Of a stretch of DNA of 45,117 bases, positions 8,957 to 28,725 are shown one piece after another; position 1 is the stretch's first letter; each line of letters begins with the position of its first letter. A program made the position numbers and the translations under genes. The notes below the pieces were generated by a model. It made no database searches. It saw only the letters and a program-made list of their open reading frames with translations, and was not told where the DNA came from. Source of the stretch: Clostridia bacterium (GTDB lineage Bacteria; Bacillota; Clostridia; Lachnospirales; Lachnospiraceae); NCBI GenBank assembly GCA_910574835.1, contig CAJTDE010000035.1:1-45117 (forward strand), given 5' to 3'.

Positions 8957-9220
8957 AAACTATATGAGTGGAATCGTACAAAACCGAAGGAGGAAAGTGA
9001 GATCAGTACAGCTTCACTGGCGAAGCTTGGCAAGAATGCCAATATCACGACAGATGTTTTGGTGAAGATCTCCAATGCTTTGGAATGCGATTTTTCTGAC
9101 ATCATGGAGATGGTTCCAGTAGAAGAAAAGGCTGATTTTTCCCCAAAAGCGCAAAAGATTGAAAGGATAAATTGTTATGGTAGATTACGCACCGGGGATG
9201 AGAACCATCATTCGAGATGA
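8957..9220 (+). pseudogene. XRE/Cro-type HTH regulator, 5'-truncated
   Basis: An open frame without a start reads STASLAKLGKNANITTDVLV then KISNALECDFSDIMEMV, the C-terminal two thirds of a small HTH_26/Cro-type repressor. The first helices are replaced by unrelated sequence (8957-9010). Its 3' end overlaps the SNF2 start by 44 bp in another frame. A relative of this gene probably once controlled the operon. Confidence 0.65.
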
Positions 9221-11999
9221 GGAATGGATGGTCAAGAAGGTCGAAAAGAACAACATGGGGAATAATGCCCTGTACTGTGTAGGTGTATCGCCTCTGGTAA
9301 AGGACAAAGAGGCAGTTTTTCTGACTGATCTGGAAGAGATTGCTGTGGTGGATCCAAAGGATGTAAAGCTTGTCATTGATGGGTCATCCTTTTTCCGAAG
9401 GACGCAGCTGTATCTGGAAAGTCAGTGGAGGCAGCAGATTCCAACAGATACGGATTTACATATCGGAGATAAGGCGGCTATGGACTTAATGCCTTATCAG
9501 CTTGAGCCTACTCAGATTTCGCTTCGCAGACCGCGGCAGCGCATCCTGATTGCAGATACTGTCGGCCTTGGTAAAACATTGGAAGCCGGTATCCTGATGA
9601 GCGAACTGATTGCCAGAGGAAAGGGCAGGCGGATTCTGGTCGTTACGGTCAAGAGTATGATGACACAGTTCCAGAAAGAAATGTGGAATCGCTTCACGAT
9701 ACCGTTGGTGCGTCTGGACTCAAAGAAGATTCATGATATAAGAGCAAAGCTACCATCAAATTATAATCCGTTCAGCTATTACGATAAGACAATCGTGTCT
9801 ATTGATACGCTGAAGAGAGATATCGAATATAGAACGCACTTGGAGAAGGCGTACTGGGATATCATTGTAATTGATGAGGCTCAGAATGTTGCAGAGCGTG
9901 GCAATCATCAGGCACAGCGATCAAGATTAGCCAAACTGCTTGCAGATCGTTCAGATACTATGATTATGCTTTCAGCGACTCCTCATGATGGACGTGCCAA
10001 GAGTTTTGCATCATTGATGAATATGCTGGATCCTACAGCTATAGCGAATCCGGATGATTACACCAAGGATGATATCAAAGGCTTGTGTGTGCGTCGTTTC
10101 AAAAAGGACGTGAAGGATCAGGTCAGCGGTTCGTTCCTAGAAAGAAGAATTGAATTACAGCGTTGCAAAGCTTCGGGCAAGGAAGAAATTGCTTTTGATA
10201 TCTTCGCTGAGATGCAGCTGCAGATGGACTTGAGCAAAACCAAGGCTCAGGGACGACTTTTTAAAACCAGTCTGGAAAAGTCGCTCTTTTCCAGTCCGGC
10301 AGCATGCATTAAGAGTATTGATGCAAGACTTAACAAACTTCGTAAGAAGTATACAGATAATGAAATCAAGGACATCCGTGCGCTGGAAGAACTGAAGAGG
10401 GCATTGGAGAATATTACTCCTGCTGATTTTTCGAGATATCAGCAGCTCCTTTCTCTGTTGAAAGATAAAGAATACGGTTGGACCGGAGCGACAGATGATC
10501 GTGTGGTTATCTTTACAGAGCGAATAGAAACCATGAAATATCTGGCTGCAAGACTTCGGGAGGATCTGAAGCTGCCAGCAAATGCAATCCAGGAGATTTC
10601 CGGGGCGATGAGTGATGCGGAGCAGCAGACGATCGTTGAGAATTTTGGACGTGAGGAAGCTCCGGTTAGAGTACTTGTTGCATCTGATGTCGCATCAGAG
10701 GGGCTTAACCTGCATTATCTCAGTCACAGGATGATTCATTTTGATATCCCGTGGTCGCTTATGGTGTTCCAGCAGAGAAACGGACGTATCGACCGTTATG
10801 GCCAGCAGAAACGTCCGGATATCCGCTATATGATGATTGAAAGTGATAATTCACAGATTAAAGGTGATATGAGGATTATTGAGATTCTGATTACCAAGGA
10901 AGAGCAAGCACTGAAGAATATTGGAGATCCGGCATTATTGCTTGGCAAGTTTTCTATTGAGGATGAAGAGCTGGTGGTTTCCGACGCTATCGAGAACGGA
11001 TCGGATGCGGATGCATTTTCAGAGACTCTGGATAGTGGGGAGGCGGAATTTGATCCGTTTGAGGCGTTGATGGCGGCCTCTGCCGATACAAGTGAGCCGA
11101 CAAAAGTAAAAAATGATGAAACACTGTTTTCGGATGCCGATTACTTATATCTGGCTATGAGTTATCTGAATCAGTCTGAAAGTCATCCGGTAGAAAAGCT
11201 TCAGTCTGTATCCGGACTGGAGGTTACCGTGACACCGGATATGAGAAAGCGTCTTACAGCGCTTCTTCCAGATGAAGCTATGCCTCAGGGTGATTATTTA
11301 AGGTTGTCTGATGATAAAGAATTCTGTATGGGAGAAATGAAAAGAAGCATGCAGAATAATATGGCTGAGACAGCTTGGCCAAAGGTTCAGTATCTTTGGA
11401 AGCAGCATCCATTATTTACCTGGGTAAATGATAAGGGTGGGCTGTTGTATGGACGTGGAGAAGCTCCGTTTGTTGGCATTCCGGATAAGATGAAACCGGA
11501 AGAGACCATTTTCATCGTTACGGGAAGCATTCCTAACAAGCGTTCCACTCCGCTGGTAGATGAATGGTTTGGGCTCCAATATGAGAATGGCAAATTTGTA
11601 AAGAGCCTGAGCATGAACGAACTGCTTGCGCATACCGGATTCCGAAGCACAAAAATCCCGAACAGCGCAAGCCTAACAGAGGCTGATGTGACTGCAGCAG
11701 AAGGATTACTGCCGGATGCTGTTGAACATGCAAAGGAATACCTGGATGGGTACTATCAGAGCTATCAAAGCCATATCAATCCGCTCTTGGACAAAGAATT
11801 AGACAAGCTGGCTGAACTGGAGACACGTCATAAATACTATCAGCTGTCCTTGTTTGAAAGTGAAAGAAAGAAAAGCGAGCAGGAACGTATGGTAGATGAA
11901 CTGTTTGATAAGTTTACAACTTGGGTTACAGACACCATGTCGATACAGAATAATCCCTATATTCGGATTATGGCGGTAATAAAGGGGGTAACAAGATGA
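9177..11999 (+). CDS. SNF2/RapA-like helicase (DrmD-like)
   Basis: This 940-aa superfamily 2 ATPase translocates on DNA. Motif I DTVGLGKT lies at about 126-133, motif II IDEAQN (DEAQ variant of DEAH) at about 231-236, and motif III LSATPHDGR at about 262-270. The helicase C-terminal motifs V/VI (LVASDVASEGLNLHYLSHRM, then QQRNGRIDRYGQ) lie at about 500-543. A 350-residue C-terminal region without recognised domain follows. Length and domain order fit DrmD of class 1 DISARM and HepA-type defence helicases. The start at 9177 follows GAAAGGAT. It overlaps the methyltransferase by ATGA, so the two are translationally coupled. The antiphage role is inferred from context. Confidence 0.88.
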   Translation: MVDYAPGMRTIIRDEEWMVKKVEKNNMGNNALYCVGVSPLVKDKEAVFLTDLEEIAVVDPKDVKLVIDGSSFFRRTQLYLESQWRQQIPTDTDLHIGDKAAMDLMPYQLEPTQISLRRPRQRILIADTVGLGKTLEAGILMSELIARGKGRRILVVTVKSMMTQFQKEMWNRFTIPLVRLDSKKIHDIRAKLPSNYNPFSYYDKTIVSIDTLKRDIEYRTHLEKAYWDIIVIDEAQNVAERGNHQAQRSRLAKLLADRSDTMIMLSATPHDGRAKSFASLMNMLDPTAIANPDDYTKDDIKGLCVRRFKKDVKDQVSGSFLERRIELQRCKASGKEEIAFDIFAEMQLQMDLSKTKAQGRLFKTSLEKSLFSSPAACIKSIDARLNKLRKKYTDNEIKDIRALEELKRALENITPADFSRYQQLLSLLKDKEYGWTGATDDRVVIFTERIETMKYLAARLREDLKLPANAIQEISGAMSDAEQQTIVENFGREEAPVRVLVASDVASEGLNLHYLSHRMIHFDIPWSLMVFQQRNGRIDRYGQQKRPDIRYMMIESDNSQIKGDMRIIEILITKEEQALKNIGDPALLLGKFSIEDEELVVSDAIENGSDADAFSETLDSGEAEFDPFEALMAASADTSEPTKVKNDETLFSDADYLYLAMSYLNQSESHPVEKLQSVSGLEVTVTPDMRKRLTALLPDEAMPQGDYLRLSDDKEFCMGEMKRSMQNNMAETAWPKVQYLWKQHPLFTWVNDKGGLLYGRGEAPFVGIPDKMKPEETIFIVTGSIPNKRSTPLVDEWFGLQYENGKFVKSLSMNELLAHTGFRSTKIPNSASLTEADVTAAEGLLPDAVEHAKEYLDGYYQSYQSHINPLLDKELDKLAELETRHKYYQLSLFESERKKSEQERMVDELFDKFTTWVTDTMSIQNNPYIRIMAVIKGVTR

Positions 12000-14900
12000 G
12001 CATGGATTTAACCGGAATTACCAACCAAAACGAATATTACACAAATCATTATTTCTCATCAATCTTTGAAGAGAATGCTTCTGAGACGATCTCTGCATGG
12101 AGAGCAGAGGCGAAGGAGAGTGAAGAGATCAGGATACCATGGGCGCTCCTGCGCGATGTGGCGCGGCAGTATTACCCGGCTCATGATCGTTTCCTTCGTT
12201 CCAAGTTCAATACCCAGACTCTGGTTAATATTCGCTCGCTTGCTGATATGTACTTAAGAGCTCTGGGATATCCGGAAGCGAAGCCGGAATGGATAGAGAT
12301 TGATGATACGCTTAAGGCACCGGTATACCTGGAACTTATCAAGGCGAATGGAGCACCGGCCTTATGGATTCTGCTTGCAACCTCTAATGATAAAGAAGCT
12401 GCCATTCTGGACAAGTTTTGTTTTGCTGCAGATGAAGTAGCAGAAGAAGGGCTGTATTCAGTACCGGCCAATATTCTTACCGATATTCCGAATGAGGATC
12501 TCATTACAAAGATCCTGTTTGGTCAGGCAGAGCCTCCACGCTTTATTCTGTTGATTGACATGAACCAGATTGCGCTCATCGACCGAAATAAGTGGAATGA
12601 GAAGAGATATCTGCAATTTGAACTTGAGGATATATTCAGTCGTCACGAAGAATCCACACTGCAGGCGATGGCAGTTCTTCTGCATAGAAATAGTTTGTGC
12701 CCTGAAGACGGAACAGCACTCCTGGACGAACTGGATGCTAATTCTCAGAAGCATGCTGCAGGGGTATCACAGGATCTGAAGTATGCACTCCGTGAAAGCA
12801 TAGAGATTCTTGGAAACGAAGTACTTTACGATATGGTTACTCATCGGGGGAGGAATCTGGAAACAGATCCGGTAGATGCCGGCAACCTGACCTTAGAATG
12901 CCTGCGGTATATGTACCGTATGCTTTTTGTGCTCTTTATTGAGGCAAGACCGGAACTTGGGTATGCACCGATCCAGAATCTGACATATAAGTCTGGATAC
13001 TCCTTGGATAATCTTCGAGACATTGCTGATGATATCCGAGATGACGTGACTGAGGTTGGAGATGGGTATTTCCTTCATGAGACACTTTCCAAACTGTACA
13101 ACCTGATTTACAGCGGATATCCGGAGACTGAGGAAGATCTGTTGAAGTATTCTCAGGAAGAGAGCCTGCACGATATGTTCGTAATTGCACCACTTAAGGC
13201 ACACATCTTTGATCCTGATTATACAAAGATGATTACAAAGTCGAAGCTTCGCAATTCCTGCATGCTTCGGATTATAGACCTTATGAGCCTTACACGTGAG
13301 ACTGGGCGGCGGAATGACAGGCGTGGGCGTATTTCTTATGCGAATCTGGGAATCAACCAGATGGGATCCGTGTATGAGGCCCTGCTTTCTTATCGTGGAT
13401 TTATCGCTGAGACAACGCTCTTTGAAGTAAAGCGTGCCGGAGACAGCTTTAATGAATTGGACGTTGGTTACTTCGTTACCGAAGATGAGTTGGATGAGTA
13501 TACCGAAGATGAGCGTGTTCGCTATGAGAAGAATGATCCGGATGGAAAGTATAAGAAGGGTCAGCTCCGCAAATACGAGAAAGGGACTTTTGTATATCGT
13601 CTGGCTGGCAGAGAAAGAGAAAAATCTGCCTCTTATTACACGCCGGAAGTCCTGACGAAGTGCCTGGTTAAGTATGCTTTGAAAGAACTGCTGGAAGGAA
13701 AGACCGCAGATGAGATTCTTCATTTGACCATCTGCGAGCCGGCAATGGGATCCGCAGCATTCTTGAATGAGGCCATCACGCAGCTTGCGGAAGCGTATCT
13801 GGATAAAAAACAGAAAGAGCGCGGGGAGATGATCCCTGCAAATGATCGGTTGAAAGAACTGCAGAAGGTCAAGATGTATATGGCAGACAGGAATGTTTAT
13901 GGCATTGACCTGAATCCTGTTGCCGTAGAACTGGCCGAAGTATCACTCTGGCTGAATACGATCTATGAAGGCGGCTTTGTGCCGTGGTTTGGTACGCAGC
14001 TGATTAATGGCAATTCGCTGATAGGAGCAAGAAGACAAGTGTACCGTGTGGAAGCCCTCAGCACTACATCAAAAGGGCTTCGTTGGTATGAGAATGCGCC
14101 TGACAGAGTGCCACTTGGAACAAAGCGTATGACGCGAAAGCAGGTATATCATTTTCTGCTGGGTGACCCTGGCATGTGTAGCTATTCTGATAAAGTCATC
14201 AAATCGCTGGAGCCGGATAAAATCAAGACAATGGCAAAGTGGAGTAAGAAGTTTACTGAGCCTTACAACAATGATGATCTGGTGACGCTGCTTCGCTTGT
14301 CTACGGCAATTGATGAACTGTGGGAGGCTCAGATTAATCTCAGAAAGGAAGTGGAAGCTAAAACACAGGACTCTCTGTCTATTTATGGATATGAGGATGA
14401 TGTTACGGATTCTCACACAACCATCAGGCAGAAGGATCAGATTCTGAGTGAACTGTACAAATCTGAACACATGAGAAATGCAGGTCCATATGCAAGATTA
14501 AAGTTTGCTATGGATTATTGGTGCGCACTTTGGTTCTGGCCGATTGATAAGGCAGATTTGTTGCCGAGCAGAAGTGAATTCCTCTTTGACATGTCTTTGA
14601 TACTGGAAGGCACAATGGCATCTGTGAATGTCAGCAGAGAGACCAAAGGCGGACAGATGTCTTTATTCCCTACAGAAATGGAACAGATAGCACTGGATAT
14701 AGTTGCCACATATGGCTCTGGATCTGTGGTGGATATTCCACGCTTGCGTAAAGAAAACCCGCGACTCAATCTTGCATACGAGATTGCAGAGCAGAATCAC
14801 TTTATGCACTGGGAGTTGGAATTTGTAGATCTATTTGCTGAAAGAGGTGGATTTGATTTAGTAATCGGGAATCCGCCTTGGATCAAAGTGAAGTGGGGAG

Positions 14901-16774
14901 AATTTGATGTCCTTTCAGAAAAAAATCCTCGGTTTGCAATTAAAAAGTTAAATGCTGCCCAAGTTAAGGAGCTTCGGGCAGTAGCTTTAAAGAATTCTAC
15001 GGAACAAGAAGATTATGAGTCGGAATACGTTTCCGCAGCAGGTCAACTTAATTATTATAACTGCGAGGTTAATTATCCTCTTTTACGTGGCCAACAAACC
15101 AATCTGTATAAATGTATTCTCCCACAAGCTTGGTATATAGCAAATGCAAATGGTGTTTCAGCGTTTATTCATCCCGATGGGGTTTATGATGATCCTAATG
15201 GTGGATTATTAAGAAAAGTATTGTATCCAAAGCTAAGAAAGAGATTTCAATTCGTAAATGAAAAACTACTCTTTACGGAGATAAGTGATACAAGTATCTA
15301 TGGGCTGAATATATACTCAAACGCATCAACGAAATCGTTTGACATGGTCTCGCATTGCTATTATCCAAGCACAATCGACGAATCATATGAAGGAGCACAT
15401 CAAAGTGAACCTATTCCAGAAATGAAAGATGCGAATGGAAATTGGAATGTTTCTGGACATCCTCGTCGAGTAGTAAAAATAGGGAAGGATGAGCTAGCAA
15501 GTATAGCGAAAGTATATGATGATCCTGAAACTCCACAGTCTACAAGATTACCAGTAATCTATGCAGTAGATTTATTAGGCGTGATTGAACGATACGCAGA
15601 GCAGACAGTTAAAATTGCTGATTATATTGGGAAAACTGATGTATACATGACACAATTACTGGATGAGACCGCATCACAGAGTAATCATGTAATTTCTGAA
15701 GGCTCACATTTCCCAGAGGATGATTATGACTTTGTATATTGTGGCCCATATATTTCAATCTCGAATCCTTTGTTTAAAACGCCTCGAAGAGTATGTAAGG
15801 AGAAGGCTGACTATGACAAAGTCGATTTACAAATGATCAGTAGTGGTTACATTCAGCGTTCTAAGTACGCGATTGAAGAAACTATGATGGATTATTTGTC
15901 GGCTTCGCCTAGAACTGAAAAGAATACTCGATATATTGATACTTATCGGATTGCGGCAAGAAAAATGTTAGGTTTGAACCAAGAGAGAACACTAATGTCA
16001 GCGATCATTCCGCCAAAAACATCTCATATCAATGGTATCTATGGAATGTACTTGGAAGATGGAAATTTGCTTATGTTTATACAGGGACTGATGTCATCGT
16101 TGCCGTATGATTATCTTATTAGATCTTTGGGGAAAAGTAATTTTCTCGATGACACAGCATACAAGATTCCAGTAATTGAAACAAATAGAAGAGGAGCCAT
16201 AGTATTAAGAGCATTAATGTTGAATTGTGTCTCAGAGAGATATCAAGATTTATGGGGAAAATGCTGGGACCAGTCGTTTTGCTTAGATAGTTGGTCAAAT
16301 GAAGATGACAAATTATCAAGAGGAATCTTTAAATCATTATCATCGGTGTGGAGTAGTTCCTCTTTTCTGAAATCTGATTATGAGAGAAGATGGGCGTTGA
16401 TTGAGACAGATGTATTGGTCGCACAGTCACTTGGAATGGATTTAAAACAACTGCTTACAGTTTATAGAACTCAATTTCCAGTGTTAAAAAAGTATGAAGA
16501 AGATACTTGGTATGACCATAACGGACGTATTGTATTTACAAATAATCGCAGCTTAACTGGAGTTGGGTTTGATCGAAATGAATGGGAAAATAGCATAAAG
16601 GATGCTCCTGCAGGTAAGAGATTCTGCCGTACCATTACCGATGATACTATGCCTGGAGGACCAGTTGAAAGAACTATAGAGTATGTTGCTCCGTTCGACC
16701 GTTGTGATCGAGAGCAGGATTACGAAATTGCATGGAAGTTCTTTGAAGAGAAATATAAAGACTCTGTGCAGTAA
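11996..16774 (+). CDS. Large N6-adenine DNA methyltransferase (Eco57I/DrmMI/PglX-like)
   Basis: This 1592-aa protein should modify host DNA using S-adenosylmethionine. Motif I CEPAMGSAAFL is at about 579 (family form DPACGSGxFL) followed by YGIDLNPVAVELAEVSLWLN (about 633), and motif IV GNPPWIKV is at about 956. The 320-residue insertion between motif I and NPPW is long. The N-terminal 550 residues (with FILLIDMNQIALIDRNKWN) resemble the N-terminal region of Eco57I/PglX-type enzymes, with no nuclease motif that I can identify. Codons from about 14820 to 16560 are visibly more AT-rich than either side, which fits an exchanged target-recognition domain. It overlaps the SNF2 gene and precedes the DUF1998 helicase by 25 bp. 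Confidence 0.87.
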   Translation: MSMDLTGITNQNEYYTNHYFSSIFEENASETISAWRAEAKESEEIRIPWALLRDVARQYYPAHDRFLRSKFNTQTLVNIRSLADMYLRALGYPEAKPEWIEIDDTLKAPVYLELIKANGAPALWILLATSNDKEAAILDKFCFAADEVAEEGLYSVPANILTDIPNEDLITKILFGQAEPPRFILLIDMNQIALIDRNKWNEKRYLQFELEDIFSRHEESTLQAMAVLLHRNSLCPEDGTALLDELDANSQKHAAGVSQDLKYALRESIEILGNEVLYDMVTHRGRNLETDPVDAGNLTLECLRYMYRMLFVLFIEARPELGYAPIQNLTYKSGYSLDNLRDIADDIRDDVTEVGDGYFLHETLSKLYNLIYSGYPETEEDLLKYSQEESLHDMFVIAPLKAHIFDPDYTKMITKSKLRNSCMLRIIDLMSLTRETGRRNDRRGRISYANLGINQMGSVYEALLSYRGFIAETTLFEVKRAGDSFNELDVGYFVTEDELDEYTEDERVRYEKNDPDGKYKKGQLRKYEKGTFVYRLAGREREKSASYYTPEVLTKCLVKYALKELLEGKTADEILHLTICEPAMGSAAFLNEAITQLAEAYLDKKQKERGEMIPANDRLKELQKVKMYMADRNVYGIDLNPVAVELAEVSLWLNTIYEGGFVPWFGTQLINGNSLIGARRQVYRVEALSTTSKGLRWYENAPDRVPLGTKRMTRKQVYHFLLGDPGMCSYSDKVIKSLEPDKIKTMAKWSKKFTEPYNNDDLVTLLRLSTAIDELWEAQINLRKEVEAKTQDSLSIYGYEDDVTDSHTTIRQKDQILSELYKSEHMRNAGPYARLKFAMDYWCALWFWPIDKADLLPSRSEFLFDMSLILEGTMASVNVSRETKGGQMSLFPTEMEQIALDIVATYGSGSVVDIPRLRKENPRLNLAYEIAEQNHFMHWELEFVDLFAERGGFDLVIGNPPWIKVKWGEFDVLSEKNPRFAIKKLNAAQVKELRAVALKNSTEQEDYESEYVSAAGQLNYYNCEVNYPLLRGQQTNLYKCILPQAWYIANANGVSAFIHPDGVYDDPNGGLLRKVLYPKLRKRFQFVNEKLLFTEISDTSIYGLNIYSNASTKSFDMVSHCYYPSTIDESYEGAHQSEPIPEMKDANGNWNVSGHPRRVVKIGKDELASIAKVYDDPETPQSTRLPVIYAVDLLGVIERYAEQTVKIADYIGKTDVYMTQLLDETASQSNHVISEGSHFPEDDYDFVYCGPYISISNPLFKTPRRVCKEKADYDKVDLQMISSGYIQRSKYAIEETMMDYLSASPRTEKNTRYIDTYRIAARKMLGLNQERTLMSAIIPPKTSHINGIYGMYLEDGNLLMFIQGLMSSLPYDYLIRSLGKSNFLDDTAYKIPVIETNRRGAIVLRALMLNCVSERYQDLWGKCWDQSFCLDSWSNEDDKLSRGIFKSLSSVWSSSSFLKSDYERRWALIETDVLVAQSLGMDLKQLLTVYRTQFPVLKKYEEDTWYDHNGRIVFTNNRSLTGVGFDRNEWENSIKDAPAGKRFCRTITDDTMPGGPVERTIEYVAPFDRCDREQDYEIAWKFFEEKYKDSVQ

Positions 16775-16799
16775 TACATGATGAAGGAGGCTATGCAGT

Positions 16800-19700
16800 A
16801 TGTTACCTTCCATACTTGCCAAGCAATTGGAAAAGGGAATTGGGGATTATATCGAGACCACATTCCCGATGACGAATGAGCCTTTTAAAGGCTCCGTTAG
16901 GAATATGCTGGAGACAAAGGATTCTGTTTATCATGAACCCTATGTATCTGTGCGCCTTCCTTTCCGTGTGGCAGAGAAGATGCCGGACTGTTTCGAAGCA
17001 ATCCATCCTGCATACCTCCCGTATGTTCATCAGGATACAGCTTTTCAGAGACTGACCGGAGATGATGGGCGATCCACATTGATTGCAACAGGAACCGGTT
17101 CCGGTAAGACGGAGTGTTTCCTGTATCCTATTTTGGAATACTGTTATCAGCATCGAGGAGAGAATGGCATCAAGGCACTCATTATCTATCCGATGAATGC
17201 ATTGGCAACGGATCAGGCAAGACGTATAGCAGGCCTTATTCACAAAAGTCCGGAGCTACGGGGGAATGTGACTGTTGGTATGTATGTCGGTGGCCGGGAG
17301 CACACACCAAGCCGCATGATGAGTGAAGACAATGTCATCACGGACCATGAAACATTGCTTAATACACCGCCAGATATTCTTATGACGAACTATAAGATGC
17401 TGGATTACCTGCTTGTTCGTCCCAAGGATGCCGGGCTCTGGAAGGATAACGCACCAGATACACTGAAATATATCGCTGTCGATGAGTTACATACTTTTGA
17501 TGGTGCACAGGGCACAGATCTTGCCTGCTTGCTTCGACGTCTTAAATCGCGTCTGTGGACACCGGCAGGCTATCTTTGCTGCATCGGAACATCTGCAACG
17601 ATGGGATCCAAGGATAACGGTAAAGGAATCCTGGAATATGCATCTGAGATCTTTGGAGAACCGTTTGAGGAGAATGCAGTCATCACGGAGGACAGACTTT
17701 CACCGGCAGAGTTCTTTGCAGATTCTGACATCACGGATTTTACTATTCCGTCAGATGAGCAAGTCAAGAAACTTACTACTTTGACACAACAGGATGATGA
17801 GAAGGCCTATATTGCTGAGGCGGTAAAGGCATGGATGAATCTTCCTGATATCAACATTTCAACACCAGAGGGAAAGATCGCTTTAGGAAAACAGCTGATG
17901 CATCATAGCTTTATGCAGGCGATGATTTCCTTCATAAAGGGGAATTATTATCAAGTATCAGCGATCGTTGATGAATTGCAGGTCAATTATCCGGCACTGA
18001 AAGAGATGGAAGACCCGGCAGAGGCTGTAAATGCACTTCTGGCGCTTATTTCCTATGCCAGAACAGGATCGGCGGAAAGTCTGAGGCCTTTCCTAAATGT
18101 TCAGGTCCAGCTTTGGATGAGAGAACTGCGTCGTCTGGTGGCAAAGGTGTCATCAAAGATGATTACATACTCTATCGCACATGATTTGAATACACAACAG
18201 GCGAAGCAGTATTTGCCCGTGGTAAACTGCCGTGATTGTGGAGCTACCGGATGGACGTCGATATTAAGCGAGCGCATGAATGCTACCATAACAAGCCTGG
18301 AAGCATTCTATAACCTGTATTTTAAAGCGGATGAGAAGATTGTAATGATGTTCCCTCATAAGGAGAGCGAGCGTCCGTGGGGATTTATAGAAGCCCAATT
18401 ATGCCCTGAGTGCTTGCAGGTAAAGCTTGGAGAGGATGCATCTGCCTCTTGTGATAATTGCGGGGCCGATACGGTTAAAGTCCTGATTCCGAATCCGATC
18501 AAAACCTCAGGTTCTAAAAATCATAAGCAGTTTGTGTGCCCGTTCTGCGGATCAAAGCGAGGCATCTCCCTGATGGGTCTTCGGAGCGCTACGGAGATCA
18601 GCACGAGCATCTCACAGTTGTTTGCATCAAAATTTAATGATGACAAAAAGACACTGGCATTTTCTGATAATGTACAGGATGCTGCACATCGTGCCGGATT
18701 CTTCAATGCCAGAACATGGAGATTCGGATTTAGAAGCGCACTGCAGCGTTATGTAGAAAACGGTGGAGCAGGGAAGTCGCTTGCTGATTTTACAAAGGGG
18801 TTCATCGATTACTGGCATGATCAGATGGATGATGAAAGCTTTGTCAGCTTCTTTATAGCCCCGAATATGACTTGGATGCGTGCCTATGAGGAAATGATTC
18901 AGAATCGTAAGCTGGGTAAGGATGCACTTGCCAAAAAGCTGATGTCTGATATAGAAAAAAGGATCTTCTATGAGATCATGCTAGAATACGGTCTTACAAG
19001 CCGTATTGGACGTACATTGGAGAAGTCAGGCTGTTCCTGCCTGTCTTTCAAGGAGGAAGAGCTTCTTGAGGTCGCCGGGAATGTGCATGAGCGTGTGACC
19101 AATGAAATCGGGTCGCTGCCGAACACCTCTGCGAAGCGATATGAGCAGATGGTTGCAGGCTATGTAAATATCATGCGGCAGAATGGTGCATTTGATGATG
19201 ATGCATTCTATCTGTTTTTGAAAGAAAACGGAAACACTTATCTGCTTTCCAATGACCGGGTGAGCTGGATGCCCGGAAGACAGTCCGGCAGAAATACTCC
19301 GCGATTTATTTTTAAGCAGAATAATCCTACAGGAAAACGGAATTTCAATTTCGATACTGTGGCAGAGAGAAAATATATAGACTGGATTTCTTCATGTTGT
19401 GATGAATTTATGATTGAGCCATCGACTTTTACAATAATCAGCCAGATTATTCTGGAGGAACTGGTGAAGTCCAGTCTGGTGGTAACGATTCAGGTTGCTC
19501 CGGACTATGTTGTCTATGGATTGAATAAGAACCATGTATACATCACGAACAAGGTGATACAGCTTAAGTGCGACACCTGTGGAATCGGTCATGTTGTTTC
19601 TGAAGAGAATAAGGATTTATGGGAAGGCGCTCCTTGCACGAGAAGCGTCTGCAATGGTTCTTTTGAAGCAGAAGAGAGTAATGAACTGGATTATTACGGA

Positions 19701-22700
19701 AAACTATTCACATCCGGTGATATCGCCAGAATAAATGCTAAGGAGCACACCGGCCTGCTGGAACGTGATGACAGAGAAGCGCTGGAGGTAGACTTCAAGC
19801 GGTGTAAGGACGGACAGAAGGTCTGGGATCCGAATGTACTGTCTTGTACACCTACGCTTGAGATGGGTATCGATATCGGTGACCTCTCTACAGTCATTCT
19901 TTGTAGCATGCCTCCGGCTCAGGCACAATTCCTGCAGCGTACCGGACGTGCAGGGCGTAAAGATGGAAATGCGTTGACATTGGCTATTGCAGCTGCGAGA
20001 CCTCATGATCTGTACTTCTATGCGGATCCACTGGATATGATGGAAGGCAATGTGCAGCCACCGAAAATCTTCCTGAAGGCTTCTGCTGTTTTGGAGCGTC
20101 AGTTTGTTGCCTACTGCATGGATTCCTGGGTGAAGCGTGGAGTACCGGAGCAGTCCATTCCGAAAAACATAGGAATCATCCTTGGGAAATTAGAGAACCA
20201 TCCGATGGATATGTTCCCGTTTAATTTCCTGAGTTATGTACAGAGTAACCTTACACATCTACTGAATTCATTTATTCAGTTGTTTGTTCAGTATCTGGAC
20301 GATATGGCAAAGCAGGAACTGAAAGAATTTGCCCAGGGTAACCGTCTCAAAAAGAGTCCGATGCATATGAGCATTCTTGAAGCTTTTGAGGCGATGAAAA
20401 AGCAGAGAGATTCTTTGTCTGCGAGTATAAAGCAGCTGAAGGATATGGTGAAGGATCTGGAAAGCAAACCGAAAGATTTTTCCTATGAGGACGAAATAAA
20501 AGAACTGAAGGCAGAGCAGGCAGCTCTCATCAATGTATTAAAGGAACTGAACAAAAAAGATGTATTCAATTTCTTGTCAGATGAGGGACTGCTTCCAAAC
20601 TATGCCTTCCCGGAGGCCGGAATCATTCTGAAAGCTGTCCTATATCGTAAGGATGAGGCAGATGCCGGCGAGGGTGAAACAAAGAAAAAATATAGAAAGT
20701 CTGTTTATGAATATAGCCGCAGTGCTTCTGCAGCTATCAGCGAATTTGCACCGAATAACAGTTTTTATGTTGACGGTAGAAAGCTGACAATAGACCAGAT
20801 TGATCTGACCAGCTCCCAGTCGGCCAAGTGGAGATTGTGTCCAAACTGCTCTCATGCACAGATTGAAGAGGCAGGAAAGAATACTGCATGCTGTCCGCAG
20901 TGCGGAAGTCCTGCATGGGCGGATTCTGGACAGGTCCGCAATATGTTGAAGGTGCAGATGGTCTATTCCAATATGGATTATACCAAGAGCCTTATTTCTG
21001 ATGAGAGCGATGACCGGTCAAATGTATTCTACTGCAAGCAGTTGCTTGTAGATGTAGACGAAGATCATGATATTTCAAGTGCTTACCAAATGGACAATGA
21101 AGAGTTTGCGTTTGGATATGAGTTTGTAAAGAAAGCTACTCTTAGAGAAATCAATTTCGGTGAAAGCGATATGGTGGGTGAGAAGCTTTCTGTGTCTGGT
21201 GTTGAAGATGTCAGAAAGGGCTTCAAGCTCTGTAAGTACTGCGGAAAGATTCAGCCAGATCACGGAAAAGAAGTACACACTTTCTATTGTAAGACCAGGA
21301 AGATGCCTGCATTCAGCAATGATCCATTTGAAGAGTGCTTATTCCTTTACCGCGAGTTTGCAACAGAGGCGCTGCGTATCTTGATTCCGGCCACAACAAT
21401 GGATTCTTCCAATGTACGAACAGAGTCGTTCACAGCTACTTTTATGCTTGGTATGAAGGAATACTTTGGTAATGTGGATCACTTGCGGGCAACGGTTAGC
21501 GAAGTACCGGTTCCGGATGCTGATTACCGGAAGCAGTATCTTGTAATATATGATTCTGTTCCTGGCGGTACGGGATACTTGAAGCAATTGATGAATGAAA
21601 AGAATTCGCTCATCGATATCTTCGAACGTGCGCTTCAGAAACTGGAACAGTGTTCCTGCAAGGAAGATCCGCAGAAAGATGGTTGCTATCATTGCTTGTA
21701 TGCATATAGGCAGAGTCAGAATATTGGCAACATTTCTCGAAGCACAGCAATCCAGATTCTCAGATCTATTCTGAGTGGGAAAGACAATCTGACAAATATA
21801 GAGAAACTAGCCAACGTTCCCGTCAACTCTTTGTTTGACAGTGAACTGGAGCGGCGTTTTGTAGAAGCTCTTGCTCAAATGGGAAATGAGAACCGCAAGG
21901 TGGATATTTCCAAGTCGCTCATTTCCGGCAAGGAAGGATACATACTAAAGATCAATGATCAGACTTGGGAGATTGAACCTCAGGTATTGCTTGATGCTAC
22001 TCAGGGTGTCAAGGTTACTTGTAAGCCGGATTTCATTATTAGTCCTGTTGGGAAATCAGATAAGCTTCCGGTCGCAATCTTTACAGATGGCTTTATCTAT
22101 CATAAGGATAAAGTCGCAGATGACACATTAAAGAGGGAAGCAATCCGAAGAAGCAGAAGGTATCGTGTATGGAGTCTCAGCTGGAGAGATGTACAGTCTG
22201 TGTTTACCCAGCAGGGAGATTATTTCACGCCGACATTGACCTACGAGAAGATGCCATCCGGTGCAAAGATGTATCAGCCTACGATCAGTGCAGCCAAAGC
22301 GGATGCTTTAAGGCCAAACAAGATGTCTGCTATGGAATTGCTGATGAGATATCTGGAAATGGATGGATCTGATAAGTTGTTTGCGGCGCATGCACATGGT
22401 ATATCTCTATCCCTTCTGGAACCGGCAAAGGCAGCAAGTACTATTGATTTCATCAATTGGAATGACATTACCGGAAAGGTGAACGGGCAGACTCATTATA
22501 CAGAGGATGATTTCGTGCAGCCGGGGACATTCTTTGGTACGTGGATTCCACGGAGTGATAATACACATCTTTACATGTATGCCGGAATTCTGGCAGCGAA
22601 GATGAAATCTGACAGAAATGCATCTGTTTCGGTTTGTGCTGTGCTGGATGACCGTAAAGATTCCAGAACGGACAAGTATGAACAGGAGTGGAATGGCTTT

Positions 22701-23123
22701 TGGCAGTTCTCTAATGTGATGCAGTTTGATGATCAGTTTATCGCTGTATGCTATACGGGACTCGACAATCAGACATATTCAGCGTTGCCTAATGGCAAGG
22801 TGGAAACCTCAGCAGAAGATGTTGTACCGTCTGAAATATCCGTGGAAGTCTGGGATGAAATAAAATCCATGTTGTTTGATGATATCAGTAAGAGTATTGC
22901 TGATGAATGTAAAATGCGTGGTATTCCTGCACCTGAAGAGGCGGGGTATGAGCTTGCGGATGCATCCGGAGAAGTCATCGCTGAAATTGAGCTGGCATGG
23001 ACTAAGAGTAAAATTGGATTTATGACCGAAGATCAAGTTGCAAATATTGAAAAGGCCAAAGCTTCAGGTTGGAAAATATTTACCGTATCGGATGAGATAG
23101 ATGATACGTTCAAGGAGGTGTGA
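16800..23123 (+). CDS. Giant DEAD/DEAH helicase with DUF1998/MZB and C-terminal nuclease-like domain (DrmA-DrmB / DruE-like)
   Basis: In this 2107-aa protein, motif I ATGTGSGKTE lies at about 96-105, DELH at about 228, motif V GIDIGDLSTV at about 1022 and motif VI QRTGRAGR at about 1045. Zinc-type Cys pairs are at about 476 (CRDCG), 534/550 (CPEC, CDNC), 579 (CPFC), 1346/1363 (CPNC, CPQC) and 1477 (CKYC). A coiled coil spans about 1200-1254. CSC...GCYHCLYAYR (about 1617-1635) is the MZB/DUF1998 zinc motif. Residues about 1675-1790 look like a Vsr/DUF559-type nuclease: SELERRF, then CKPDFI, then VAIFTDGFIYH. The size and DUF1998 recall Druantia DruE; the gene order recalls DISARM DrmA and DrmB in one chain. 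AAGGAGG 7 bp before the ATG sets the start. Confidence 0.87.
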   Translation: MLPSILAKQLEKGIGDYIETTFPMTNEPFKGSVRNMLETKDSVYHEPYVSVRLPFRVAEKMPDCFEAIHPAYLPYVHQDTAFQRLTGDDGRSTLIATGTGSGKTECFLYPILEYCYQHRGENGIKALIIYPMNALATDQARRIAGLIHKSPELRGNVTVGMYVGGREHTPSRMMSEDNVITDHETLLNTPPDILMTNYKMLDYLLVRPKDAGLWKDNAPDTLKYIAVDELHTFDGAQGTDLACLLRRLKSRLWTPAGYLCCIGTSATMGSKDNGKGILEYASEIFGEPFEENAVITEDRLSPAEFFADSDITDFTIPSDEQVKKLTTLTQQDDEKAYIAEAVKAWMNLPDINISTPEGKIALGKQLMHHSFMQAMISFIKGNYYQVSAIVDELQVNYPALKEMEDPAEAVNALLALISYARTGSAESLRPFLNVQVQLWMRELRRLVAKVSSKMITYSIAHDLNTQQAKQYLPVVNCRDCGATGWTSILSERMNATITSLEAFYNLYFKADEKIVMMFPHKESERPWGFIEAQLCPECLQVKLGEDASASCDNCGADTVKVLIPNPIKTSGSKNHKQFVCPFCGSKRGISLMGLRSATEISTSISQLFASKFNDDKKTLAFSDNVQDAAHRAGFFNARTWRFGFRSALQRYVENGGAGKSLADFTKGFIDYWHDQMDDESFVSFFIAPNMTWMRAYEEMIQNRKLGKDALAKKLMSDIEKRIFYEIMLEYGLTSRIGRTLEKSGCSCLSFKEEELLEVAGNVHERVTNEIGSLPNTSAKRYEQMVAGYVNIMRQNGAFDDDAFYLFLKENGNTYLLSNDRVSWMPGRQSGRNTPRFIFKQNNPTGKRNFNFDTVAERKYIDWISSCCDEFMIEPSTFTIISQIILEELVKSSLVVTIQVAPDYVVYGLNKNHVYITNKVIQLKCDTCGIGHVVSEENKDLWEGAPCTRSVCNGSFEAEESNELDYYGKLFTSGDIARINAKEHTGLLERDDREALEVDFKRCKDGQKVWDPNVLSCTPTLEMGIDIGDLSTVILCSMPPAQAQFLQRTGRAGRKDGNALTLAIAAARPHDLYFYADPLDMMEGNVQPPKIFLKASAVLERQFVAYCMDSWVKRGVPEQSIPKNIGIILGKLENHPMDMFPFNFLSYVQSNLTHLLNSFIQLFVQYLDDMAKQELKEFAQGNRLKKSPMHMSILEAFEAMKKQRDSLSASIKQLKDMVKDLESKPKDFSYEDEIKELKAEQAALINVLKELNKKDVFNFLSDEGLLPNYAFPEAGIILKAVLYRKDEADAGEGETKKKYRKSVYEYSRSASAAISEFAPNNSFYVDGRKLTIDQIDLTSSQSAKWRLCPNCSHAQIEEAGKNTACCPQCGSPAWADSGQVRNMLKVQMVYSNMDYTKSLISDESDDRSNVFYCKQLLVDVDEDHDISSAYQMDNEEFAFGYEFVKKATLREINFGESDMVGEKLSVSGVEDVRKGFKLCKYCGKIQPDHGKEVHTFYCKTRKMPAFSNDPFEECLFLYREFATEALRILIPATTMDSSNVRTESFTATFMLGMKEYFGNVDHLRATVSEVPVPDADYRKQYLVIYDSVPGGTGYLKQLMNEKNSLIDIFERALQKLEQCSCKEDPQKDGCYHCLYAYRQSQNIGNISRSTAIQILRSILSGKDNLTNIEKLANVPVNSLFDSELERRFVEALAQMGNENRKVDISKSLISGKEGYILKINDQTWEIEPQVLLDATQGVKVTCKPDFIISPVGKSDKLPVAIFTDGFIYHKDKVADDTLKREAIRRSRRYRVWSLSWRDVQSVFTQQGDYFTPTLTYEKMPSGAKMYQPTISAAKADALRPNKMSAMELLMRYLEMDGSDKLFAAHAHGISLSLLEPAKAASTIDFINWNDITGKVNGQTHYTEDDFVQPGTFFGTWIPRSDNTHLYMYAGILAAKMKSDRNASVSVCAVLDDRKDSRTDKYEQEWNGFWQFSNVMQFDDQFIAVCYTGLDNQTYSALPNGKVETSAEDVVPSEISVEVWDEIKSMLFDDISKSIADECKMRGIPAPEEAGYELADASGEVIAEIELAWTKSKIGFMTEDQVANIEKAKASGWKIFTVSDEIDDTFKEV

Positions 23124-23126
23124 TAG

Positions 23127-25229
23127 ATGGAGGTAGCAGCAAAGGTAGCAATATCCGCAGATTTTCTTACGGCATTTGCAGCGTTGCCGAGGCAGATTCA
23201 GGGGAAGGTTACAGAGTTCATCAATAAGTTCCGTAATAATCCACAGTCTCCGGGAATCAACTATGAAAAAATTAATGGCGGAATGGACAAAAAAATCTGG
23301 TCTGTACGGATTGATGATACCTACCGTGGAATCACCGTAAGACAGCCTGAGACGGGCGTTTATCTGCTTCTCTGGGTCGATCATCATGATGAGGCCTATG
23401 ATTGGGCGAGGAATAAAAAATGTGAGATCAATCCGAAGACTGGAGCCATTCAGGTATTTGATATTGTGACAACACCGGTTGTGGAACCGGCAGCACAGGA
23501 CGTTGTACTGTTTGCGGAACTTACGGATAAGGGTCTGATTGAGCTTGGAGTTCCGGAAGAGCAGATCCCATTTGTGAGGTCTATCGGAGATGCACAGGAG
23601 TTTTATGATAAGAAAAGCAGCTTCTCAGGTGATACATTTGAGGCGCTTTCATGGGTTGTTGAAGGCATCCCTGTTGATGAGGTAATTGAGCTCTTCCGAG
23701 AAGAGAAGGAGGGCAGTGAACCTACAGAGAACCTGGCGGATGCGTTGGAAAGCCCGTTATCGCTAAAATCCTTTGTGGTTGTTGAAGGGGAAGAAGAACT
23801 CCGCCGAGTCATGGCAGAGCCACTTGAAAAATGGAGAGTATTCCTTCATCCGACACAGAGAAAAATTGTTAATAAAAGCTATTCTGGTTCTGCAAGAGTA
23901 CTTGGTGGTGCAGGCACCGGAAAAACTGTTGTTGCAATGCACAGAGCTAAGCATTTGGCAGCGGAGTTGAAGGATAAAGAAAGAATCCTTTTTACTACCT
24001 ATACAGCAAACCTGGCCTCTGATATCAAGGATAATCTGAGAAAGATTTGTACGTTGGATGAGATCAGAAGAATTGATGTGATCAATCTTGATGCGTGGGT
24101 ATCTCAGTTCCTTCGTGAGCATGGATATCCAGCTGAGATTGTCTACGAAGAAAAGGCTGATAATCTCTGGGAAGAAGCGGTGCTGGGAACGGATTTTTCC
24201 GGTGAATTCCCTGTAAGTTTCTATGAAGAAGAATATAATCGTGTTGTTGTCGCACAGGAGGCGTTTTCGCTAGAGAAATATGTAAAGGCAAGCAGAACCG
24301 GACGCGGTACCAGGCTGGATAGAAAGAAGAGAATGCAGATCTGGAAGGTGTTTGAAGCATACCAGAATCTGATGAAGGAAAATCAGGTCCGAGATATCAA
24401 CACTGCTATGTATGAGTGCAGGTTGTTAATAGAAAAAATATCCTCAGAAACGAGGTATAAGCATGTCATCGTTGATGAGGGACAGGATCTTAGCGCAAAT
24501 GCATTTCATCTGCTCAGGTCAATTGCCGGTGAAGAGCACGAGAACGATATCTTTATAGTCGGCGATGCGCACCAGAGGATTTATAAAAACAAGGCTGCTC
24601 TGTCAAAATGTGGAATCAATATCAGAGGAAGAAGCAGCGTTCTGAGAATCAATTATAGAACAACGGAAGAGATTCGGAAGGCGGCATTTGCTTTACTGAA
24701 TGGAATATCCTTTGATGATCTTGACGATTCATTCGACACTGGGGACCGTTGTCAGTCCCTTACGCATGGATTAGTTCCGGAGATAATTGCTACAGCGAAC
24801 GCAAATGAGGAATTTGATGCAATCCTGGCAAAAGTCAAAGGGTTGATCGATGGCGGTGTGTCCGCAAAAAATATCTGTGTTGTCGCCAGGACGCACAAAT
24901 TGCTGGATGATTACATCGCTCATTTCACTTCGAGCGGGATCCGCTGTTATGAGATCAAGGGAAATAAGGCGGATGATCGTGGGCTGGATGGAATCCGTGT
25001 TGCTACGATGCACAGGGTTAAGGGACTGGAGTTCCAGTATGTGTTTGTTGTGGCGGCCAACAATCGGATTATTCCGTTAGCTTCGGCAATTGACCATACG
25101 GATGCAGTCAGTGAGCAGGAAACAATGACTGCTGAAAAGTGTCTGCTATATGTAGCACTGACAAGAGCTCAAAAGGGTGCTTATATCAGTGGATATGGCA
25201 AGATGTCGGAGTTTCTGCAAGGAAAGTAA
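23127..25229 (+). CDS. RelE/ParE-like domain fused to a UvrD/Rep helicase
   Basis: In this 700-aa protein, residues 1-95 (FLTAFAALPRQIQGKVTEFI, KIWSVRIDDTYRGITVRQ, VYLLLWVDHHDEAYDWA) have the fold signature of RelE/ParE-type toxins. A superfamily 1 helicase follows: motif I GGAGTGKTVVA at about 260, motif II VDEGQDLS at about 448, motif III GDAHQRIYKN at about 478, INYRTTEEI at about 508, HRVKGLEFQYV at about 628 and ALTRAQKG at about 677. It starts 3 bp after the DUF1998 gene, with AAGGAGGTG inside that gene's end. Such fusions are known in accessory loci; whether the RelE-like part cuts RNA or binds nucleic acid is unknown. Confidence 0.87.
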   Translation: MEVAAKVAISADFLTAFAALPRQIQGKVTEFINKFRNNPQSPGINYEKINGGMDKKIWSVRIDDTYRGITVRQPETGVYLLLWVDHHDEAYDWARNKKCEINPKTGAIQVFDIVTTPVVEPAAQDVVLFAELTDKGLIELGVPEEQIPFVRSIGDAQEFYDKKSSFSGDTFEALSWVVEGIPVDEVIELFREEKEGSEPTENLADALESPLSLKSFVVVEGEEELRRVMAEPLEKWRVFLHPTQRKIVNKSYSGSARVLGGAGTGKTVVAMHRAKHLAAELKDKERILFTTYTANLASDIKDNLRKICTLDEIRRIDVINLDAWVSQFLREHGYPAEIVYEEKADNLWEEAVLGTDFSGEFPVSFYEEEYNRVVVAQEAFSLEKYVKASRTGRGTRLDRKKRMQIWKVFEAYQNLMKENQVRDINTAMYECRLLIEKISSETRYKHVIVDEGQDLSANAFHLLRSIAGEEHENDIFIVGDAHQRIYKNKAALSKCGINIRGRSSVLRINYRTTEEIRKAAFALLNGISFDDLDDSFDTGDRCQSLTHGLVPEIIATANANEEFDAILAKVKGLIDGGVSAKNICVVARTHKLLDDYIAHFTSSGIRCYEIKGNKADDRGLDGIRVATMHRVKGLEFQYVFVVAANNRIIPLASAIDHTDAVSEQETMTAEKCLLYVALTRAQKGAYISGYGKMSEFLQGK

Positions 25230-25253
25230 CTATCGTTAAGGAGTATCAGAATT

Positions 25254-26387
25254 ATGAGTTTGATTCTATGCCCAGAATGTGGAACTAAAATCTCTGATAG
25301 GGCGACAAAGTGTCCTCATTGCGGTTTCCAGAGCGCGGATGCTGAACGGCCCATTAGCGAACAAGATAAATACGAGATTGTTCCAATCTTTGAATATGAT
25401 ATTGAGGAGTGGAAACCTAATAGGGGAGATCTGAGTGTGATTTCCTATGAGGACAATAAAACCCTTATCGAATATTTTGGTAGTTGGAAAACGATACAGG
25501 TTAAGCTTCCGGCTATTGCTGAAGTCATTGGGGCTATGGCAAATAAAAAGCATGTGATGATTGCCAAAATGGATAGCTATGTTAAAGACTTGATCGATAA
25601 AGGAATATACCGCTTTACGATTGATAAACAGGGAGAAATTCTTCCGACAATCAGAGATGCTGACGGTTTTGTAAAGCAAGTCCGGTTGGAAGACATGTCC
25701 CTTACGCCAAACCTGACACAGTCGCTGAATAATCTCTCTACGCATGTTGTTATGGCACAGATATTAGATGAGATTGAGTATGTCGGAGACGCCATTAGAG
25801 AGATACATATTGAACTACAGAATGATCGGCTGGCTATGGCCGAAAGTTCCCGTGATAAATTGAAGCAGGCACGGATGATACAGGATGCAAAGCTGAGAGA
25901 AATTGCTTTAATAGGAGTTGTAAACAGCGCGACAGATGCGAAGAGAACCCTTATGCGAAATTTCTCTCAGAATATAAGTCATATTATTGAACATTCTCAT
26001 AAGAGCGATCTTCAGCTGATACTATCCCCAAAGGGTGAGAGAGATATCAGCCAAAAAGCTATTGATTCCTTCCAAGCCCTTGTGTATATAACGAATGCTG
26101 TTCAAATAGAATGCGAAGGTTATGCAATGCTTGGGGAGTATGAGCCGTGTTGCGAATGTTTAAGTGAGTTCAAAACATTTATTGAAGACAATGGTCTTAA
26201 TAAGAGAGATACATTGCTTCTGCTCAATGAAAATTCTTCACAGAAAAGAATTGAGATTGTAGATGAGTTTTCAGATATAGCTGCAAGAATATCGTCGTTT
26301 GATATATCTTTAGGGCAGATAGAGTTTCAGATGCGGGATTTGCTGACAGCAACAGATGACGGAGGTGAAAATGATGACCAAGAATAA
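25254..26387 (+). CDS. Zinc-ribbon protein of the defence operon, function unknown
   Basis: The 377-aa protein begins with a rubredoxin-like zinc ribbon (CPECGTKISDRATKCPHCGF, residues 6-25). About 90 residues of mixed fold follow, then a long, mostly helical, charged region (about 140-377) without membrane segments. CCEC occurs at about 300. It is 24 bp after the helicase gene, with AAGGAG before the ATG, and overlaps the next gene. The helical body suggests an adaptor or scaffold. I recognise no named family. Confidence 0.65.
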   Translation: MSLILCPECGTKISDRATKCPHCGFQSADAERPISEQDKYEIVPIFEYDIEEWKPNRGDLSVISYEDNKTLIEYFGSWKTIQVKLPAIAEVIGAMANKKHVMIAKMDSYVKDLIDKGIYRFTIDKQGEILPTIRDADGFVKQVRLEDMSLTPNLTQSLNNLSTHVVMAQILDEIEYVGDAIREIHIELQNDRLAMAESSRDKLKQARMIQDAKLREIALIGVVNSATDAKRTLMRNFSQNISHIIEHSHKSDLQLILSPKGERDISQKAIDSFQALVYITNAVQIECEGYAMLGEYEPCCECLSEFKTFIEDNGLNKRDTLLLLNENSSQKRIEIVDEFSDIAARISSFDISLGQIEFQMRDLLTATDDGGENDDQE

Positions 26388-26595
26388 GGTTGCTGATAAT
26401 AGTGAAATAATGTATTGTAAGAAGTGCGGATGCGAGCTTTCGAGTACAAATAAGCATAAGATCTGTGATAACTGCAGGAGAGAACGCGCGGTAAAAATCA
26501 GAAATGGTGCGCTTGGTGCAGTTGGAACTGTGAGCAGCATCGCACTCTTCGTCATAACCAGAGGAAAACACGGTGGCAGAGGAACAAAGGCATAA
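26371..26595 (+). CDS. Small zinc-ribbon membrane protein
   Basis: The 74-aa protein has CKKCGCE and CDNCRRE (two CxxC knuckles, about 16-40), a basic stretch, and one hydrophobic segment (GALGAVGTVSSIALFVITRG, about 48-67), ending in GKHGGRGTKA. The start at 26371 is chosen because GGAGGTG lies 8 bp upstream; an in-frame ATG at 26356 has no such site. It overlaps the preceding gene by 17 bp, the last gene of the operon. It might anchor the complex at the membrane (inference). Confidence 0.6.
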   Translation: MMTKNKVADNSEIMYCKKCGCELSSTNKHKICDNCRRERAVKIRNGALGAVGTVSSIALFVITRGKHGGRGTKA

Positions 26596-28647: not shown

Positions 28648-28725
28648 GCAATGTTTTAGATAACGTGGTTCTGGATATGATGGACACAACAAAGAAACCG
28701 GAGGATTATAAGGGGGGAGGACGGG

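Follow-up and report, generated by a model that had tools for sequence, protein, structure and literature searches.

A clostridial operon of ARMADA type II kind, with exchangeable modules in its methyltransferase ArmB and a zinc-ribbon gene pair found also beside restriction systems

Contig CAJTDE010000035.1 (45,117 nt in length and analysed as a whole; hereafter the window), from assembly GCA_910574835.1 of a Clostridia bacterium assigned to the Lachnospiraceae, carries six open reading frames (ORFs) on the plus strand between 9177 and 26595. An initial annotation, made from the letters of the DNA alone, had placed six co-directional genes of a DISARM/Druantia-like antiphage operon here, and our ORF check of the window confirms every one of them at that span and on that strand. 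By homology, we read the operon as an antiphage one and its four large genes as an ordinary ARMADA type II system (ArmA-ArmB-ArmC-ArmD), i.e. a system already named, which in the window is followed by an accessory pair of genes, E and F. The features are given below; L and G codes, here and throughout, are the locus and genome labels of the relatives we used in comparisons.

8967..9176, plus strand: presumed promoter region, start of a block conserved in two Lachnospiraceae relatives (the blastn matches of L096, genome G394, and L097, genome G391, both begin at 8967)
9177..11999, plus strand: armA, SNF2/RapA-like helicase, 940 aa (Pfam, motif mapping, alignment to Escherichia coli ATCC 8739)
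11996..16774, plus strand: armB, PglX/type IIG-like DNA methyltransferase (adenine by motif), 1592 aa (ATCC 8739 alignment, motifs, PADLOC IIG model with 868 bits)
14896..16472, plus strand: exchangeable cassette in armB, about residues 967-1492, read as target-recognition region (DNA comparison; the same region is hypervariable in E. coli ArmB)
16800..23123, plus strand: armC, YprA/DruE-like helicase with conserved CxxC pairs and MZB domain, 2107 aa (alignment, motifs, tree)
21840..22109, plus strand: Vsr/PD-(D/E)xK-type nuclease residues of ArmC (conservation across the compared ArmC rows; assignment from PMC12458937)
23127..25229, plus strand: armD, RelE-like region (about residues 1-100) fused to a GajB/UvrD-like SF1 helicase, 700 aa (alignment, motifs, weak Gp49 match)
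25254..26387, plus strand: gene E, 377-aa zinc-ribbon protein, accessory (Pfam, class survey, locus neighbourhoods)
26356..26595, plus strand: gene F, 79-aa protein with CxxC pairs and a hydrophobic stretch, partner of E (ORF list, tblastn)

The genes are tightly packed: armA and armB overlap by 4 nt, gene E begins 24 nt behind armD, and E and F overlap by 32 nt. Their domain content (SNF2, adenine methyltransferase, DUF1998-type helicase, RelE-like/UvrD, zinc ribbon) is as first described. Pfam assigns SNF2-rel and Helicase_C to ArmA, Eco57I/N6_Mtase with one NPPW motif to ArmB, DEAD, Helicase_C and MZB (which we take to be the former DUF1998) to ArmC, UvrD to ArmD (at whose N-terminus Gp49 also matches, weakly and below its cut-off), and a zinc ribbon to gene E. 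Gene F, for which an NCBIfam scan was the only profile search, gave one match far below its cut-off; its CxxC pairs and hydrophobic stretch were judged by eye.

ARMADA type II has been described in a 2025 preprint by Bell et al. (PMC12458937), with E. coli NCTC 12900 and ATCC 8739 as its strains. In E. coli, one such system protects against 13 of 80 phages and acts directly, without abortive infection; the helicase and NPPW motifs are required, and deletion of any one of the four genes abolishes defence (PMC12458937). Aligned end-to-end with the ATCC 8739 proteins (taken from a second assembly of that strain), those from the window are 47.7% identical over 959 columns for ArmA, 40.6% over 1672 for ArmB, 36.4% over 2181 for ArmC and 44.8% over 701 for ArmD, the last being what had first been seen as an added SF1 helicase with a toxin-like domain. 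Matches comparable for all four proteins come from the E. coli plasmid pQnrS1_005237 and from a Pseudanabaena plasmid. Since the co-directional A-B-C-D order recurs in relatives from Clostridia to E. coli and a cyanobacterium, the arrangement in the window is not a chance one. Moreover, the eight residues mutated in the preprint (ArmA K136, D236; ArmB G605, N971; ArmC K110, D234; ArmD K266, D454), two of which caused only partial loss of defence (PMC12458937), are numbered after NCTC 12900 and, when placed by number on the pQnrS1_005237 and ATCC 8739 protein sets, sit on named motifs. All eight are conserved in the window, as ArmA K133 (Walker A) and D233 (Walker B), ArmB G585 (SAM motif) and N959 (NPPW), ArmC K103 (Walker A) and D228 (Walker B), and ArmD K266 and D450.

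A tree of 18 YprA-type proteins unites the ten rows labelled ArmC, including ATCC 8739 and one (L079) at whose locus no ArmA was seen, in a single clade (100/100), separate from DruE and from a locus with C-A-B order (eight outgroup rows). Hence the window and E. coli ARMADA type II share the four genes, their order, domains, functional residues and the ArmC clade; they differ in the clostridial host and the extra E-F pair. Among 391 genomes of a class survey, ArmB was found at an E-value of 1e-60 in four, one of them the window's own and one a fragment. Viral contigs gave 20 loci with an ArmC match, and among the 15 examined (all except L090-L094) five have A-B-C-D (L075-L078, L080), L079 has B, C and D, and nine hold more distant YprA-type genes. 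All four large proteins thus score as ordinary ARMADA type II members, and where the initial annotation had left the choice between a distinct type and a known but loosely annotated relative, it is the latter that we find.

PADLOC-DB 2023 splits the four large proteins among its DrmD, type IIG, DruE and GajB models, which explains the earlier impression of a hybrid. The likeness to DISARM class 1 and Druantia holds as a relation by homology to both, not as membership in either. DISARM class 1, too, combines an SNF2 helicase with a large methyltransferase and a YprA-type helicase, two more of its genes are shared with ARMADA according to the preprint (PMC12458937), and in our searches ArmA matches DrmD (322.9 bits in PADLOC, 338.3 bits in NCBIfam) as well as a DrmA model (224.3 bits) and ArmB matches DrmMI (185 bits, PADLOC). 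That the operon is a variant of DISARM class 1 with DrmA and DrmB fused and DrmC lost is nevertheless highly improbable: the NCBIfam DrmD score of 338.3 bits compares with a cut-off of 610, ArmC is far closer to DruE (377 bits) than to DrmA (55 bits) in PADLOC, there is an extra RelE-UvrD gene, neither a separate DrmB nor the PLD nuclease DrmC is seen in 9177-26595, and the full-length matches lead to ARMADA II instead. The initial remark that DrmA- and DrmB-like parts lie in one chain, with DrmC absent and another nuclease-like domain present, was right by homology.

DruE being the best PADLOC family for ArmC, one may also think of a Druantia variant, namely DruE with an added methyltransferase and helicases. 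Ten helicases in the Protein Data Bank (PDB) match ArmC, 9tu7, 9wae and YprA 6znp among them, and the best match is 9tu7 (E-value 1.1e-52), a 2108-aa DEAD/DEAH helicase which we assume may be DruE. The YprA proteins of ARMADA and Druantia have been called closest kin (PMC12458937), and Druantia III has a giant YprA-type helicase with a C-terminal nuclease (PMC13192584), a layout that ArmC would share. Yet when ArmC of the window is compared by BLAST with the product of the gene before armA in ATCC 8739, taken as DruE, the best segment covers 235 columns, as opposed to 2181 with ArmC of that strain; the operon has a methyltransferase and two more helicases and, among the families shown, no DruH match; and the tree separates ArmC from DruE, on long branches. 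To this variant we give hardly any credence. It is very unlikely, too, that ArmB is a stand-alone type IIG restriction-modification enzyme with neighbours acting separately, as REase_MTase_IIG, its best PADLOC model (868 bits), might suggest, given that relatives as far apart as Clostridia, E. coli and a cyanobacterium keep the A-B-C-D order and that this model probably contains ArmB proteins itself. BREX was considered and rejected, PglX models reaching only 22.2 bits (PADLOC) and 26.1 bits (NCBIfam, cut-off 900) against ArmB; ArmA matches the BrxHI and BrxHII helicase models (206.7 and 189.7 bits; PADLOC), and other BREX core genes are absent from the best families shown for the operon.

Loci of ARMADA relatives vary in their accessory content. 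In L036:1-19097 (an E. coli plasmid) and L069:2602-25381 (chromosome) a DEAD/DEAH helicase gene, taken as druE, stands directly before armA, an arrangement reported for Zorya-Druantia-ARMADA islands (PMC12458937). Accessory genes that are mutually unrelated by BLAST lie between armB and armC in L064/L066, L068/L040, L032, L075 and L076, unlike the strict gene order of which the preprint speaks (PMC12458937); of the inserted genes, those scanned gave no Pfam match at 1e-4 (three proteins) or PADLOC match at 1e-3 (six proteins), and one in L076 resembles the AlbA-like genes found upstream of the operon in the window (see below).

Across the compared ArmC rows, E1684, D1744, D1763-G1764 and H1768 are conserved, which are residues of Vsr type, and the putative C-terminal nuclease region has no Pfam and no PDB sequence match. 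The N-terminal region of ArmD holds residues conserved across relatives; its RelE-like part is only weakly seen by profile or PDB sequence, the one PDB match (RelK, E-value 0.93) not being significant. In genome G021, the ArmC frame seems to be split near the C-terminus into two ORFs (L034:15537-20000 and L035:1-1887).

A feature of ArmB that we found by comparison with its relatives is the exchange of modules. Between the window and the Lachnospiraceae locus L067, DNA is 87.9% identical over 10496-14896 and 90.0% over 16472-18271 with no match in between; a more sensitive blastn search extends the left match to 15283, so the left edge of the cassette is soft (14896-15283). In L068, where the breakpoint had to be taken from the protein because the DNA comparison gave no match, ArmB identity is 92-100% before residue 960 and then 32-65% until about residue 1480. 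A third relative, L066, retains 91.1% DNA identity across 10496-16756, cassette included, and the block is therefore not simply unalignable. More distant relatives (L075, L077, G382, G021) likewise lose DNA similarity in the cassette stretch. The G+C content of 14896-16471 is 0.371 compared with 0.455 and 0.446 in the flanks, and it falls in the cassette of all seven E. coli armB genes measured as well.

In E. coli, we compared 19 ArmB genes (the query and 18 picked by hand among 60 listed of 519 records), 18 of them distinct. On average, pairs of them are 0.96-1.00 identical as far as about residue 1000 and 0.88-0.89 up to 1100; this identity drops to 0.43-0.58 at about 1100-1195 and to 0.41-0.56 at 1349-1445, and returns to 0.97-1.00 after this second block. 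At 85% identity, the 18 distinct proteins fall into nine first-block and seven second-block classes, which occur in 15 combinations (a count that, with hand-picked genes, is no frequency); first-block class 1, for instance, is paired with classes 1, 5 and 6 of the second. At third codon positions the flanks are 0.950 and 0.887 identical and the blocks 0.443 and 0.453, and values of about 0.45 indicate that diverged DNA was imported rather than changed point by point. ArmB carries exchangeable modules, and in E. coli two blocks of it reassort within surroundings of 95-98% identity.

Such reassortment between conserved flanks is in keeping with the way BREX and type I restriction read sequence, and the swappable parts probably set which DNA sequence is read by ArmB. 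In type I restriction, HsdS has two exchangeable recognition modules between conserved parts; unlike those of HsdS, the ArmB modules share one chain with the methyltransferase. The closer parallel in layout is BrxX/PglX of BREX, an adenine methyltransferase with conserved N-terminal, methyltransferase and C-terminal parts, in which variation is greatest in the recognition domain with its two subdomains (PMC11842806); ArmB would share this layout, albeit with 1592 aa compared with about 1205 for BrxX. In the passages of the ARMADA preprint that we consulted, we found no account of ArmB module exchange (PMC12458937). At L079:1-8836, an ArmB-like ORF is seemingly interrupted near the recognition region by an ORF of 1834 aa, behind which a short ArmB-like end follows.

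The zinc-ribbon genes E and F are a linked accessory pair that ARMADA as a rule can do without and that is not part of its core. In the class survey, gene E has matches in 37 of the 391 genomes (E-value 0.001), 30 of which cover only its first residues, the zinc ribbon; apart from the genome of the window, four have full-length relatives (64-79% identity), and a further two have weak ones (26%). None of these four other genomes has ArmB at 1e-60, and the three other genomes with ArmB lack E, so that at the thresholds used both meet only in the genome of the window. We also scanned genome contigs with two short peptide patterns, which find close relatives only, and obtained 27 loci, 28 with the window. 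Fourteen of these have E beside restriction genes of type I, II or III, five beside ARMADA (the window, L039, L040, L041, L064) and nine beside neither, counts that were made without a null model on partly redundant loci and some short contigs, most restriction loci being classed by BLAST to a few Pfam-annotated ones. The initial idea of six genes forming one unit is not borne out.

Type I restriction accounts for nine of the 28 loci (L042, L043, L044, L047, L049, L054, L055, L057, L058), AlwI-type restriction for two (L056, L060), and type III with an AIPR protein for three (L045, L046, L062), L046 being assigned by similar gene lengths and AIPR, and L062 by AIPR and by a fragment that weakly matches type III. 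The nine without any of these (L048, L050-L053, L059, L061, L063, L065) have, for example, a glutamine synthetase (L052) or a glucanotransferase (L061) nearby; L050, counted here, has an MmeI-type methyltransferase piece three ORFs beyond E. As a rough yardstick, HsdR N-terminal domains are present in 99 of 196 class genomes, and chance adjacency of a gene to HsdR should be well under 1%. Gene F has a tblastn match in 30 of 32 rows, six matching rows being three pairs of the same contig and the L059 match spanning 20 residues. Two of the five ARMADA loci show decay, with E cut short and F lost in L064, and F lost in L041.

Gene E is unmatched in the plasmid and phage collections and has one match in viral contigs, and its single PDB match (E-value 0.6) lies over the zinc ribbon. 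Since its AlphaFold2 model is poor (mean pLDDT 59.1, pTM 0.47; a helical part at about 190-350 is better), we infer no fold. A zinc ribbon is not mentioned in the main text of the preprint (PMC12458937), the one source in which we looked for the pair. The role of E-F is perhaps, at a guess, regulatory or that of an adaptor.

Some E loci have features of their own. An AIPR protein of 582 aa, 97-99% identical to that of L027, stands just before E in type I and type III operons (L027, L044, L045, L046, L047, L062), and AIPR, E and F may travel together. In L055, L057 and L058, HsdS copies and half-copies and a recombinase-like gene lie beside E, followed by HsdR, which looks like a locus shuffling its specificity. 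GmrSD genes precede E in L042 and L043, and a GmrSD/HEC-like protein (L075:18431-20272) follows armD at the position that E has in the window.

How might the system work? ArmB would recognise a sequence by means of its two exchangeable modules and methylate adenine there in host DNA, whereas unmodified phage DNA would be bound by ArmB together with the translocase ArmA. This binding would license ArmC (helicase and Vsr-type nuclease) and ArmD (UvrD and RelE-like) to unwind and damage the DNA, and the host would not be killed in the process. Specificity set by the modules is suggested by their variation, and self-marking by methylation is what knowledge of the family would predict; how the helicases share the work, and that the Vsr-type domain cuts DNA, are likewise presumed. 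DruE, a studied relative of ArmC, is a helicase-nuclease that loads on 3' single-stranded DNA (PMC13192584), and its activity together with the Vsr-type residues of ArmC makes us favour a recognition step, carried out by ArmB with ArmA, through which ArmC and ArmD would be licensed on unmodified DNA. Taken as a whole, an ARMADA type II system with an accessory zinc-ribbon pair, in which recognition directed by ArmB licenses ArmC/ArmD on unmodified phage DNA, is in our judgement the probable reading.

Several points weigh against it. Besides hand-picking of the E. coli ArmB genes, their sequences differ between the two blocks as well (0.63-0.94 mean pairwise identity); a PDB sequence search with ArmB finds nothing at an E-value of 0.01; and several outgroup branches of the ArmC tree are long, the tree program warning of a possibly false join of L081 and the ArmC clade. 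In E. coli, the SAM-motif mutant G605A kept partial defence (PMC12458937), which recognition and self-marking do not fully explain, and self-toxicity of methyltransferase mutants, as a simple restriction model would predict, goes unmentioned in the passages of the preprint that we consulted (PMC12458937). Furthermore, phage Ocr binds the recognition domain of BrxX (PMC11842806), so the blocks of ArmB could vary through selection for escape from phage inhibitors and not for DNA specificity. We regard this as unlikely because third-position identity of about 0.45 speaks for import of diverged DNA and not for point change, the two blocks reassort, and their layout is that of the known BrxX recognition domain, although both causes can act together. 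As for E and F, they could be seen as fifth and sixth core parts of this ARMADA lineage, being co-directional, 24 nt behind armD and within a block of DNA that is conserved up to 26676 in L039 and L040. However, none was seen behind armD in L075, L076 (where only 550 nt follow), L077, L078, L080, G382 and G021, the ARMADA plasmids of E. coli and Pseudanabaena are without a match to E, the pair is truncated or lost in L064 and L041, and 23 of the 28 E loci are without ARMADA, all of which makes a core role unlikely. An ARMADA type II system with an accessory pair is thus the reading we retain.

By blastn, what the window shares with Lachnospiraceae relatives extends from 8967 (L096, L097) to 26676 (L039, L040), and this block is embedded in a mosaic of mobile genes. 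Upstream are transposase pieces, Fic and AlbA-like genes; downstream are a phage replisome organiser, an IstB-like ATPase, a Tn916-type integrase (29763-31007) and the C-terminal piece of a coupling protein. Window positions 27895-31007 and 36614-37360 are remains of one or more mobile elements. The proposal that the operon is cargo of an integrated element is only partly backed: it has in its favour the integrase, replisome organiser, IstB-like ATPase and transposase pieces nearby but lacks element ends, neither these nor attachment sites having been found in a search for exact 22-mers more than 3 kb apart.

Two AlbA/HATPase/winged-helix genes lie at 4288-5541 and 7563-8918, and a 23-bp direct repeat, identical in its two copies (4163 and 7274), precedes each of them. 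L076 has a similar gene in its armB-armC interval, L026 and L048 have one close to E, and a stretch of L040 (17951-18390) is 71% alike to the AlbA-like region. An ORF at 6176-7012 joins an HsdM N-terminal region and an N6 methylase piece to a winged-helix domain like those at the end of the neighbouring AlbA-like genes, and is probably a remnant or chimera.

In the sources that we consulted, we found neither the module exchange in ArmB nor the spread of the E-F pair described. Both may belong to one picture, namely that ARMADA is a sequence-reading system whose specificity evolves as two recognition modules are exchanged combinatorially in a single giant methyltransferase, and that E-F is a plug-in shared by restriction systems of different chemistry (ARMADA, type I, AlwI-type II and type III); this we put forward tentatively, at somewhat less than even confidence. 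Among 5426 complete E. coli genomes, 475 have a match to armB covering at least 80% (519 have any match, at least one being a short chance match). According to a review, ARMADA is one of several systems supposed to take unmodified DNA for foreign (PMC12904381), and module exchange in ArmB offers a direct and testable handle on that idea. The E-F pair, in turn, would mark restriction systems and possibly help them.

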